Shown here: piece after piece, positions 10,148-59,400 of the stretch | Numbering within the stretch: the stretch's first letter is position 1 | Layout: each line of letters starts with the position of its first letter | Source of the DNA: an alpha proteobacterium HIMB114 | GTDB taxonomy: Bacteria; Pseudomonadota; Alphaproteobacteria; Pelagibacterales; Pelagibacteraceae | DNA: 64,000 nt | NCBI GenBank assembly: GCA_000163555.2 | Contig: ADAC02000001.1 | Coordinates: forward strand, 1,054,001-1,118,000 | Direction: 5' to 3' | Position numbers and translations under genes: made by a program | Notes under the pieces: model-generated | The model's input: the letters and a program-made list of their open reading frames with translations, nothing else | What the model was told of the DNA's origin: nothing | Databases searched by the model: none

Positions 10148-10222
10148 GCGGGTGTAGCTCAGTGGTAGAGCGAAACGTTGCCAACGTTTAGGTCGTGGGT
10201 TCAATTCCCTTCACCCGCTCCA
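10148..10222 (+). tRNA. tRNA-Gly (anticodon GCC), CCA encoded
   Basis: Acceptor arms GCGGGTG (10148-10154) and CACCCGC (10212-10218) pair perfectly. The D arm GCTC/GAGC and anticodon arm AAACG/CGTTT enclose loop TTGCCAA, giving anticodon GCC, and the T loop is TTCAATT. The discriminator is T and CCA is encoded at 10220-10222. The T stem GTGGG/CCCTT contains one G-U wobble and one U-U mismatch. A small lipoprotein ORF starts only 5 nt after CCA. Confidence 0.95.
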
Positions 10223-28690: not shown

Positions 28691-29547
28691 TAATTGATGG
28701 AAAAAAAGTTGCAGAAGAATTAAGAGCAAAAATTAAATCAGATATAAACAAGTTAACAGGTAATCAAAAACCTGGATTAACTGTAATACTCATAGGCGAA
28801 GATGCTGCGAGTCAAATATATGTAAAAAATAAAGAAAGGTTTGCAAATGAAGTAGGAATTAATTCTACTGTTATAAGATTTGAAAGCAGTATTTCCGAAG
28901 AGGATTTGAAAAATGAAATTAGAAAATTGAACAATGATAATAATGTTCACGGTATTTTAGTTCAATTACCTTTGCCAAAACATATTAATCAAAGAGACAT
29001 CATTGAAACCATAGATCCCAAAAAAGATGTAGATGGATTTCATCCAATTAATGTTGGAAATTTATCATCAGGTAACGATGCATTAGTGCCGTGCACACCT
29101 CTTGGCTGTTATTATTTAATTAAAAAAGCCGTACCTAATCTTAGTGGTTTAAATGCTGTTGTTATTGGAAGGTCTAATATTAACGGAAAACCAATGACAC
29201 AATTACTATTAAAGGAAAATTGTACAGTGACTATCGTTCATTCTAAAACTAAAAATATTGAAGAAATTTGCTGTAGAGCCGACCTAATCATTGCTGCCGT
29301 TGGAATACCAAAAATGGTTAAAAGTAATTGGATTAAAAAGGATGCTGTTATTATTGATGTAGGGATTAATAGAATTGAGGTTGATGGCAAAAATAAAATT
29401 GTAGGTGATGTTGATTTTGACGAGGTGCAAAATAAAGTAAAAGCTATAACACCAGTTCCTGGTGGAGTTGGACCTATGACGATTGCATGTTTATTAGAAA
29501 ATACCTTGAAAGCTTTTAATAAAATTTCGGGGAACGCTCCTCAATAG
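28687..29547 (+). CDS. folD: Bifunctional methylenetetrahydrofolate dehydrogenase/cyclohydrolase
   Basis: FolD interconverts 5,10-methylene-, methenyl- and 10-formyl-tetrahydrofolate. Signature stretches are YVKNKERFANEVGI (catalytic Lys and Tyr region), HGILVQLPLPKH, DGFHPINVG, the NADP site VIGRSNINGKP and PVPGGVGPMTI near the C-terminus. Length 286. It is the last gene of a three-gene run; its stop codon lies inside a GC-rich terminator hairpin. Confidence 0.97.
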   Translation: MIIDGKKVAEELRAKIKSDINKLTGNQKPGLTVILIGEDAASQIYVKNKERFANEVGINSTVIRFESSISEEDLKNEIRKLNNDNNVHGILVQLPLPKHINQRDIIETIDPKKDVDGFHPINVGNLSSGNDALVPCTPLGCYYLIKKAVPNLSGLNAVVIGRSNINGKPMTQLLLKENCTVTIVHSKTKNIEEICCRADLIIAAVGIPKMVKSNWIKKDAVIIDVGINRIEVDGKNKIVGDVDFDEVQNKVKAITPVPGGVGPMTIACLLENTLKAFNKISGNAPQ

Positions 29548-29562
29548 AGGAGCCCCCTTTAT
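29529..29562 (+). terminator. Rho-independent terminator of folD
   Basis: GCTCCTC (29536-29542) and GAGGAGC (29547-29553) form a perfect stem with loop AATA, extended by GGGG (29529-29532) pairing with CCCC (29554-29557), followed by TTTATTGT. The folD stop (29545-29547) is within the hairpin. Confidence 0.85.
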
Positions 29563-29712
29563 TGTATAGTCTCTCGACCGAATTCATTTAGAAAAATGAA
29601 TTCATTTTAAGTATTTCAACTTAAAGTATACGGTAAATAAAACCGTTTCTTTAAATTTCAGGTGGTGACATAAACACCTCCTCCAATAATTACTTAATCA
29701 TCATTTTTTTTT
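29563..29712 (+). ncRNA. Possible structured RNA downstream of folD
   Basis: Several inverted repeats succeed each other. GTATA (29564-29568) pairs with TATAC (29627-29631) around GAATTCATTT/AAATGAATTC (29580-29589/29594-29603, loop AGAA) and TTTAAGT/ACTTAAA (29606-29612/29619-29625), a three-way junction. Next come CGGT/ACCG (29631-29645) and AGGTG/CACCT (29660-29679). CCTCCTCC (29677-29684) is anti-Shine-Dalgarno-like, and a run of nine T lies at 29704-29712. The opposite strand offers GGAGGAGG and a 6-codon ORF. Strand is uncertain, and the remaining gap to 29934 is plain AT-rich DNA in which I see nothing. Confidence 0.35.
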
Positions 29713-29934
29713 AAAATCAAATTAGCTTAATTCTTTCTTTTCAAAAAAAAAATTAAATAAATTCATAAGCATAATAAATTTTTTACACTCAACTATTTGT
29801 TGCAGAGTTAGTTAATTAAGTATTTTTGCAGTTTATTTTTTTAACTCTAAAAATAAAAATTAAAGATTTGAATTTTCAGTAACTTAAAATTCTTTTAATT
29901 AAATATTAAAAGTTTATAGTATTGTTAATTTTTT

Positions 29935-30318
29935 TTATAAATCTTCTTTACCCACATTAGTCTTTAATATTTTACTTTTCCGTAGCTTTAAGACTATGAT
30001 TGCAATAGCAAGCAACAATATTGCACCAGATTCAAAGATTAGTACTGACGCATCAATATCTTTTTTTTGTAATATAATTAAACGGGCCAATGCAGTAATT
30101 GCTATAAATAGCGGATAAGTAAGCCTAATAGATTGATTACTCCAGTAGTTACCAACCATACCCATAACTTCCAAATAAATGAAAAGTAATAATAAATCAG
30201 CTAACTGAATATTTTGAACTCTATACATTTGAATAATTTCAAGAGTAAATGCCAAAGACGTAGCAACCAAAACTATAGCTGCACCTGCTAACTGAATTCT
30301 TCTTATGAAATCTTTCAT
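29935..30318 (-). CDS. PsiE family membrane protein
   Basis: A 127-residue protein with four predicted helices. NIQLADLLLLFIYLEVMGMVGNY is the phosphate-starvation-inducible PsiE motif (residues about 36-58), preceded by a helix containing LEIIQMYRVQ. E. coli PsiE is induced by phosphate starvation; its biochemical role is unknown. It abuts argG at a 0-bp gap and appears co-transcribed with it. Confidence 0.8.
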   Translation of the reverse strand: MKDFIRRIQLAGAAIVLVATSLAFTLEIIQMYRVQNIQLADLLLLFIYLEVMGMVGNYWSNQSIRLTYPLFIAITALARLIILQKKDIDASVLIFESGAILLLAIAIIVLKLRKSKILKTNVGKEDL

Positions 30319-49448: not shown

Positions 49449-50597
49449 ATGTCGAAAAAAAACGTTACGTCAAAATCGAGACGTAAATTTTTCAAAAAAG
49501 CAGCAGCAGTTACGGGTGCTACAGCAGCAGCTGTCGCAATGCCTAACGTTGGTGCTTGGTCAGGTTCACACGGAAAAACTGTGAAACTGAAAATGCAAGC
49601 TGCATGGGGCGGCGGTATCTTCTTAGAGATGGCGAAGCAATATGGAGACAGAGTAAATGCTATGGGTGGTGGTTCGCTACAAATGGAAGTTTTACCTGTT
49701 GGTGCAGTTTTAAAAACTAAAGAAATCGCAGATGGTGTATCTAAAGGTGTAGTAGATGCTTCTCACTCAGTGACAGCATACTGGTACGGTAAAAACGCTG
49801 CTGCTTCTTTATTTGGTACTGGTCCTTCTTACGGATTCTCATCTCAAGAATTAATGGGATGGATTGAAGAAGGTGGCGGAAGAGCTTTATACGAAAAGAC
49901 TTTAAAGAAAATCGGTCTTGATGTTGTAGGTTTCTTCGCTATGCCTATGCCTGCTCAGCCTTTCGGTTGGTTTAAGAAACACACTACAAAAGTTTCTCAG
50001 GTTAAAGGTCTTAAGTATAGAACAGTTGGACTAGCTACAAACGTTCTTCAAAAAATGGGAATGGTTGTAAGACAGTTACCAGGTGGTGAAATTCAACCAG
50101 CAATGAAAACTGGTTTGATTGATGCTGCTGAGTTTAATAACCCAACATCTGATAGAGACTTTGGTATGCAAGATGTTTCTAAGCATTATCACTTAGGAAG
50201 CTTCCACCAATCTCAGGAGATGTTTGAGATGCAGTTCAACAAGAAGAAGTACAACAGCTTATCACCAGCGCACCAAGCTATTATTAAGCACGCTGCTGAA
50301 GCTGCAAACACTTCAAACTATTTCATGGCATTAGTGAGATACTCAAATGACTTAGGAAGACTTATGAAAGAGTCTGGAGTTAATGTGTATCAAACTTCTG
50401 ATGAAATCTTAGATGCTCAATTAGCAGCCTGGGATACAGTTATGAAGGACTTTAGAAAAGATCCATTGTTTGATGAGATCGTAAGATCACAACAAGCATA
50501 CGCTAAAAAAGTAATGAAGTATCTATTCATGAACCAGCCTAATTACAGACTGGCTTATACTAGAGCCTTCGGAGATCCATCTAAAGTTAAAATTTAG
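49449..50597 (+). CDS. dctP: TRAP transporter substrate-binding protein DctP
   Basis: A 382-residue exported protein. The start MSKKNVTSKSRRKFFKKAAA has a Tat-type twin-Arg motif (SRRKFF) and a signal helix to about residue 38. The mature part is DctP-like: KLKMQAAWGGGIFLEM, EIADGVSKGVVDASHS, FAMPMPAQPFGWF and LKYRTVGLATNVL, then PTSDRDFGMQD. It binds an organic anion in the periplasm. Position beside lldD and glcDEF suggests lactate, glycolate or 2-oxo acids. A terminator follows. Confidence 0.9.
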   Translation: MSKKNVTSKSRRKFFKKAAAVTGATAAAVAMPNVGAWSGSHGKTVKLKMQAAWGGGIFLEMAKQYGDRVNAMGGGSLQMEVLPVGAVLKTKEIADGVSKGVVDASHSVTAYWYGKNAAASLFGTGPSYGFSSQELMGWIEEGGGRALYEKTLKKIGLDVVGFFAMPMPAQPFGWFKKHTTKVSQVKGLKYRTVGLATNVLQKMGMVVRQLPGGEIQPAMKTGLIDAAEFNNPTSDRDFGMQDVSKHYHLGSFHQSQEMFEMQFNKKKYNSLSPAHQAIIKHAAEAANTSNYFMALVRYSNDLGRLMKESGVNVYQTSDEILDAQLAAWDTVMKDFRKDPLFDEIVRSQQAYAKKVMKYLFMNQPNYRLAYTRAFGDPSKVKI

Positions 50598-50610
50598 TTT
50601 GATCTAATTC

Positions 50611-50640
50611 AAAAAGGGCCTCTTATGAGGCCCTTTTTTT
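50611..50640 (+). terminator. Terminator/attenuator between dctP and dctQ
   Basis: AAAAAGGGCCTC (50611-50622) and GAGGCCCTTTTTTT (50627-50640) form a strong hairpin with loop TTAT and a T tail. Lying between the binding protein and the membrane subunits of one TRAP system, it should let dctP be made in excess. Confidence 0.85.
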
Positions 50641-50676
50641 GATAGCAAAACTCTAATTATAAATATAGAAAACGCC

Positions 50677-59296: not shown

Positions 59297-59372
59297 AGAA
59301 AAAGATAGTCTTTTTCTGGTGTCTCTTAATAAGAGAGATCAACACTAGTCAGCGAGTTTTCGCCCACTAGTG
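59297..59372 (+). promoter_or_regulatory. Hairpin-rich leader upstream of ffh
   Basis: Three adjacent hairpins in the gap between dapF and ffh: AGAAAAAGA/TCTTTTTCT (59297-59305/59309-59317, loop TAG), TCTCTT/AAGAGA (59322-59327/59331-59336), and CACTAGT/ACTAGTG (59343-59349/59366-59372) with GCGA/TCGC (59352-59355/59360-59363) inside. GGAAG at 59384-59388 lies before the ATG at 59401. It may regulate ffh at RNA level. It does not resemble the SRP RNA itself. Confidence 0.4.
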
Positions 59373-59400
59373 CAATACCTGCTGGAAGTAAAGAAAAATT

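Follow-up and report, generated by a model that had tools for sequence, protein, structure and literature searches.

A candidate minus-strand small RNA gene with a conserved micro-ORF in SAR11 bacteria

SAR11 bacteria are among the most abundant marine bacteria and have few regulators. SgrS/SgrT and VcdRP/VcdP are base-pairing RNAs of the Hfq type, structured small RNAs that form separate transcription units and carry a small ORF with its own Shine-Dalgarno sequence. The leader or arrest peptides TnaC, ErmCL, and mgtL are specified by very short ORFs with conserved last codons and a possible Pro-dependent pause, followed by structured RNA. The alphaproteobacterial small RNAs alpha-r14/NfeR1 and cuckoo carry several unpaired CCUCCUCCC motifs on the transcribed strand; NfeR1 has three of them in unpaired regions (PMC10746234).

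Here, we analyzed a 64,000-nucleotide stretch of the genome of the alphaproteobacterium HIMB114 (contig ADAC02000001.1, positions 1,054,001 to 1,118,000 of the forward strand), hereafter called the window. The spacer between its folD and psiE genes very probably holds, on the minus strand, a structured RNA gene whose ORF is translated, as judged from sequence comparison. This gene resembles SgrS/SgrT and VcdRP/VcdP in the arrangement described above but differs in the size of its micro-ORF, which has only 6 to 9 codons, the small proteins of those systems being longer (29 residues for VcdP; PMC8672173). The compared copies contain a conserved ORF within a structured RNA, as dual-function small RNAs do, and its translation is predicted. 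The features listed for TnaC, ErmCL, and mgtL are also present, but the SAR11 RNA has no downstream gene to control, since unrelated genes converge on it. Like those of alpha-r14/NfeR1 and cuckoo, the locus of this alphaproteobacterial small RNA bears a CCUCCUCC-like string on one strand; unlike in those RNAs, there is a single copy, CCTCCTCC, which is paired and lies on the opposite strand. Being conserved and stand-alone, and having a very short ORF that appears to be under coding-type selection, this RNA gene is a defined element for work on cultured strains.

Extent of the gene and its relatives in SAR11

The spacer is flanked by folD (plus strand, stop codon ending at 29547) and psiE (minus strand, 29935 to 30318), both identified by Pfam. 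An earlier note on this DNA had proposed a structured small RNA here, and homologs and covariation back that proposal. The true unit, however, is 29527 to 29685 plus the promoter up to about 29720, instead of the 29563 to 29712 first noted (Table 1). Both bounds of the RNA are predictions, being the ends of the R1 model described below. The 3' end of the gene overlaps the last folD codons in the window and, through the 3' half of hairpin H5, in the window's genus (g1). The 3' end of the RNA is uncertain, because H5 is not consistently accompanied by a U tract on this strand. Comparative data support the predicted strand, promoter, ORF, and hairpins H3 to H5.

Table 1. Predicted features of the small RNA gene, in the order in which the RNA is read (window coordinates)
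Feature	Position	Strand	Observation
-35-like box TTGATT	29715..29720	-	TTGA conserved ahead of GGAGG
-10-like box TTAAGT	29692..29697	-	17 nt past the -35 box; in the window, a weak match
Whole small RNA	29527..29685	-	R1 model match, 178.9 bits; read 29685 -> 29527
Shine-Dalgarno GGAGGAGG	29677..29684	-	GGAGG 3-8 nt ahead of ATG in every intact copy
H1, weak hairpin between the Shine-Dalgarno and the Pro-Pro codons	29660..29682	-	40/41 distinct 5' ends, predicted
Micro-ORF ATGTCACCACCTGAAATTTAA, MSPPEI-stop	29651..29671	-	Frame, Pro-Asp/Glu, and stop kept
H2, lineage-specific hairpin including the stop codon	29618..29657	-	In g1 and g12 folds; not conserved in g4
H3, 10-bp hairpin GAATTCATTT/AAATGAATTC	29580..29603	-	Invariant in g1/g12
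H4, 4-bp hairpin GGTC-GAGA-GACT, GNRA loop	29568..29579	-	Compensatory changes; loop kept in g1/g12
H5, long hairpin with GUU bulge ("folD terminator")	29529..29557	-	Strong covariation; in loci without folD too

Searched at the DNA level, 61 SAR11 genomes yielded homologs in three genomes of g1 (G003, G004, and G006) and in three of genus g12 (G018, G028, and G036). The R1 model, built from seven homologs, matched relatives in g1 and also all six g12 genomes and the genus g4 at E about 1e-6. The R2 model, built from four g4 sequences only, matched 106 of 397 family genomes (91 in g4; the six of g12 with E about 1e-5). As the two models were built independently and recover each other's members, the homology is mutual. 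The Shine-Dalgarno plus ORF pattern was found in 10 of the 397 family genomes and, in a collection of 84,980 species, in nine stretches, all of them Pelagibacteraceae or Candidatus Pelagibacter by title. The small RNA turned up in about 100 SAR11 genomes, with one copy found per genome, and in most sampled genomes of the genus of HTCC1062, HTCC7211, and HIMB5; searches of more than 40 genomes used stricter filters, so member counts may be low.

About ten of the weakest matches are false or degraded. We rejected as false the weak R2 matches in g5 and g3 (G308, G280, G390, G302, G230, G117, G312, and G131), which are without the Shine-Dalgarno and ORF signature, and L274 (G409), which is without the ORF. 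L252 (G241:C6:25787-25936) appears to be a degraded copy with neither Shine-Dalgarno nor start codon, perhaps a decaying gene. L048, in a genome assigned to g5 (G348, record BS30m-G15), is a g1-type copy with folD, psiE, and argG neighbors as in the window; the neighbor proteins are 80 to 92% identical to those of the window, and a binning error or a gene transfer is possible. We rejected a phage origin, since viral contigs contained no exact match to the H3 stem or to the g4-type ORF and BLAST of phage records gave no match. A looser g1-type ORF pattern did have viral matches, at least those listed, as expected for so short a pattern.

Three g4 genomes are, we assume from their lengths, those of HTCC1062 (1,308,759), HTCC7211 (1,456,888), and HIMB5 (1,343,202). 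The HTCC1062 copy (762687 to 762858) lies inside IGR 762678-763012 of Table 1 in Meyer 2009, which supports the HTCC1062 assignment; in that study, the IGR had 76 BLAST hits, below the cut-off of 200, and was assigned no RNA (PMC2704228). HIMB5 was analyzed in Stav 2019, which reports several sORFs and candidates in its supplements (PMC6429828). In the literature covered, we found no paper describing the small RNA, and a prior listing under another name is possible.

The micro-ORF and a possible ribosome pause

In the sequences compared, the micro-ORF with its Shine-Dalgarno sequence is the most conserved element of the small RNA. In each of the 80 intact copies examined, GGAGG is followed after 3 to 8 nt by an ATG, the start of a 6- to 9-codon frame ending in (P/L)P(D/E)(T/I)-stop. 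These copies comprise 29 distinct versions with four lengths, whole-codon differences, and three stops (TAG, TAA, and TGA), for example, MSPPEI-stop in the window and MNLSPPDT-stop in HTCC1062. Silent changes occur at the end of the frame (CCA/CCG, CCT/CCA, GAC/GAT, and ACT/ACA), and the replacements there are GAA for GAC or GAT (Glu for Asp), a single Thr-to-Ile change, and PP to LP. Asp or Glu always comes next after Pro-Pro, and PPD or PPE, with silently varying codons, is present in all but two of the 29 versions; LPDT takes its place in two genomes. The last 3 to 4 residues are kept, and the N-terminus and the length vary. As far as such patterns can tell, the micro-ORF is under selection as a translated frame, and this selection is concentrated at its end. 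The minus-strand GGAGGAGG with an MSPPEI ORF, mentioned in the earlier note as what this strand offers, was the correct lead. In the window's genus, an in-frame GTG lies two codons upstream of the ATG and overlaps the Shine-Dalgarno sequence; we took the ATG as the start because of its Shine-Dalgarno spacing.

Of 65 distinct regions upstream of the ORF, nearly all have TTGA 36 to 44 nt 5' of GGAGG. The spacing between the putative -35 and -10 boxes is also 16 to 17 nt in relatives, as in TTGAAT-17-TAATAT of the presumed HTCC1062 genome.

Whereas the anatomy of the small RNA is well supported, its mechanism is something that we infer. We lean, tentatively, toward a stand-alone SAR11 small RNA, transcribed from the minus strand, translated, and regulatory, which would be gated by ribosome pausing at Pro-Pro-Asp/Glu. 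Transcription from its own promoter would begin at the Shine-Dalgarno AGGAGG or a few bases 5' of it, and ribosomes would translate the 6- to 9-codon micro-ORF ending in Pro-Pro-Asp/Glu-Thr-stop. A variable linker and three hairpins would come next, with H5 closing the RNA and also located where the convergent gene ends. The ribosome would pause at the Pro-Pro-Asp/Glu codons, in the manner of EF-P-dependent pauses, and the pause, not the free peptide, would be what matters. By sitting on the 5' end, the paused ribosome may control the stability of the RNA or the part of it that is free for action in trans, so that the level or the activity of the RNA would report on translation.

We propose the pause because PPD and PPE are listed among the EF-P-dependent pauses of E. 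coli (PMC4140641) and because each of the six SAR11 genomes searched for EF-P has it; in the same E. coli study, however, strong pausing was limited to a minority of PPX motifs, and upstream residues had an influence (PMC4140641). In keeping with arrest and EF-P pause systems, the motif is conserved at the protein level, the arrest itself being a prediction. Conservation at the last codons with a variable N-terminus, as in arrest peptides, speaks for the pause, but the LPDT for PPDT in two genomes speaks against it, since the diproline is then not absolute. That pausing is functionally relevant is therefore a suggestion we make with some reserve. Whether the RNA acts in trans as a regulator, rather than being a simple mRNA for a peptide, appears evenly balanced. 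As for a free-standing translation sensor, in which the Pro-Pro-Asp/Glu pause would switch the stability or the trans-activity of the RNA that carries it and not a downstream gene, we consider it rather doubtful.

The coding-type constraint on the ORF, its strong Shine-Dalgarno sequence, and its own promoter would also suit a micropeptide gene, in which the RNA is just the mRNA of a functional 6- to 9-residue peptide whose C-terminus (PDT, PET, or PEI) is recognized by a partner, the hairpins serving only to stabilize and end the message. This explanation is somewhat unlikely, as conservation is limited to the C-terminal residues and as three covarying hairpins exceed the needs of a short message.

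Hairpins and covariation

The earlier note had described a 10-bp stem and a short hairpin; both, H3 and H4, are real and conserved, and H4 covaries. H1, by comparison with shuffled sequences, was no more stable and had no covariation support. In g4 and g5, other paired stems occupy the place of H3, as found by a script that accepts pairable stems only and thus shows presence but gives no statistic. The linker between the micro-ORF and the 3' hairpins varies between lineages and is A-rich in g4.

For H4 and H5, 97.7% of the cells were paired in 35 sequences. Changes on both sides were found in 12 of 15 pairs, compared with 4.9 in shuffles and 1 to 3 in slid controls, and the covariation score was 0.348, compared with 0.162 after shuffling. 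The alignment had been fitted to a model containing the same pairs, which biases it toward them; the slid controls and the recurrence of the same hairpins in unconstrained predictions indicate that this bias does not explain the covariation.

The three stable 3' hairpins, the variable exposed linker, and the stand-alone gene would be expected of a trans-acting, antisense-type small RNA, for which the micro-ORF would be secondary, for instance, by letting a bound ribosome protect the 5' end. We regard this as distinctly unlikely, given that the ORF is the element most conserved and that we saw no conserved unpaired seed outside the ORF region. Moreover, Hfq (PF17209) had no match in six SAR11 genomes (G000, G031, G063, G101, G018, and G190), and known carriers were matched. 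A classic Hfq-dependent mode is therefore unlikely.

Genomic setting, strand, and known families

At 38 of 40 g4/g5 loci, the downstream neighbor is convergent; in most cases, no more than about 25 nt separate its stop codon from H5. The neighbor families at the 40 loci form 12 clusters downstream and 9 upstream. In g12, the small RNA is also found beside genes of the IalB family and related to photolyase in place of folD. Since H5 recurs without folD, this conserved and covarying hairpin, which the earlier note had taken for the folD terminator and left out, belongs to the RNA gene. The unrelated convergent neighbors also indicate that the gene is its own transcription unit and not the leader of any one gene. 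They make it highly improbable that the RNA is an attenuator in the leader of a downstream gene, with the micro-ORF encoding the leader peptide, even though the layout (Shine-Dalgarno sequence, mini-ORF with a possible pause motif, hairpins, and terminator-like stem) would fit; a conserved co-directional downstream gene, typical of such attenuators, was not found at these loci.

The reading of a stand-alone, pause-gated RNA places the transcript on the minus strand. Folding alone gives no choice of strand, because on both the 162-nt spacer forms a better fold than any of its dinucleotide shuffles (z of -5.2 for plus and -3.4 for minus). In g1 and g12, however, the stem of H4 changes on both sides and the minus strand keeps a GAGA, GAAA, or UAAC loop, the latter being GNRA-like. 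Among the H4/H5 pairs of 35 sequences, 24 cells read as G-U and 2 as A-C on the RNA strand, which points to the minus strand, since the opposite strand would show the reverse. In the g1 and g12 set, the ratio was 12 to 3, and all three A-C cells came from one misaligned sequence. Predicted folding energies favor the minus strand in most sequences.

Other elements that had been noted on the plus strand are present in the window but fared less well in comparison. The closed three-way junction can be drawn, and its GTATA/TATAC closing stem forms in the window and in L052, but it is not predicted in L051 and L053 of the same genus, so the junction is not conserved. The string CCTCCTCC (29677 to 29684, plus strand), taken as anti-Shine-Dalgarno-like, is the complement of the Shine-Dalgarno GGAGGAGG; its 13 genome copies on both strands equal the number for a reversed control, and the strand that would carry it as an anti-Shine-Dalgarno is disfavored by the wobble pairs, the GNRA-type loop, the promoter, and the ORF. 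The T run at 29704 to 29712 is not conserved and lies between the minus-strand -35 and -10 boxes. Thus, despite CCTCCTCC and a stable plus-strand fold in the window, an alpha-r14/cuckoo-type small RNA with an anti-Shine-Dalgarno on the plus strand has next to no probability, as the wobble pairs favor the minus strand, the junction is broken in L051 and L053, no plus-strand end follows CCTCCTCC in relatives and the T run is not kept, and one paired motif stands against the three unpaired motifs of NfeR1 (PMC10746234).

A comparison with Rfam 15, another check that had been suggested, found no family at gathering score at the small RNA locus, either in the window or in five relatives. In the presumed HTCC7211 genome, there was no match up to E 1, and in the window, there were only weak, chance-level matches. 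The candidate 6S RNA was rejected, because RF00013 had no match and because the small RNA is a row of separate hairpins instead of one long bubbled hairpin. RF00013 matched none of the 61 SAR11 genomes, the window's included, and matched a control Caulobacter genome; 6S RNA may have been lost or may be very diverged in SAR11. Elsewhere in the window, a weak R1 match on the plus strand (50443 to 50642, 18.1 bits, E 0.02) is probably due to chance. Two known elements lie on the plus strand, a tRNA-Gly at 10148 to 10222 and the ffh sRNA motif RF01793 at 59328 to 59380.
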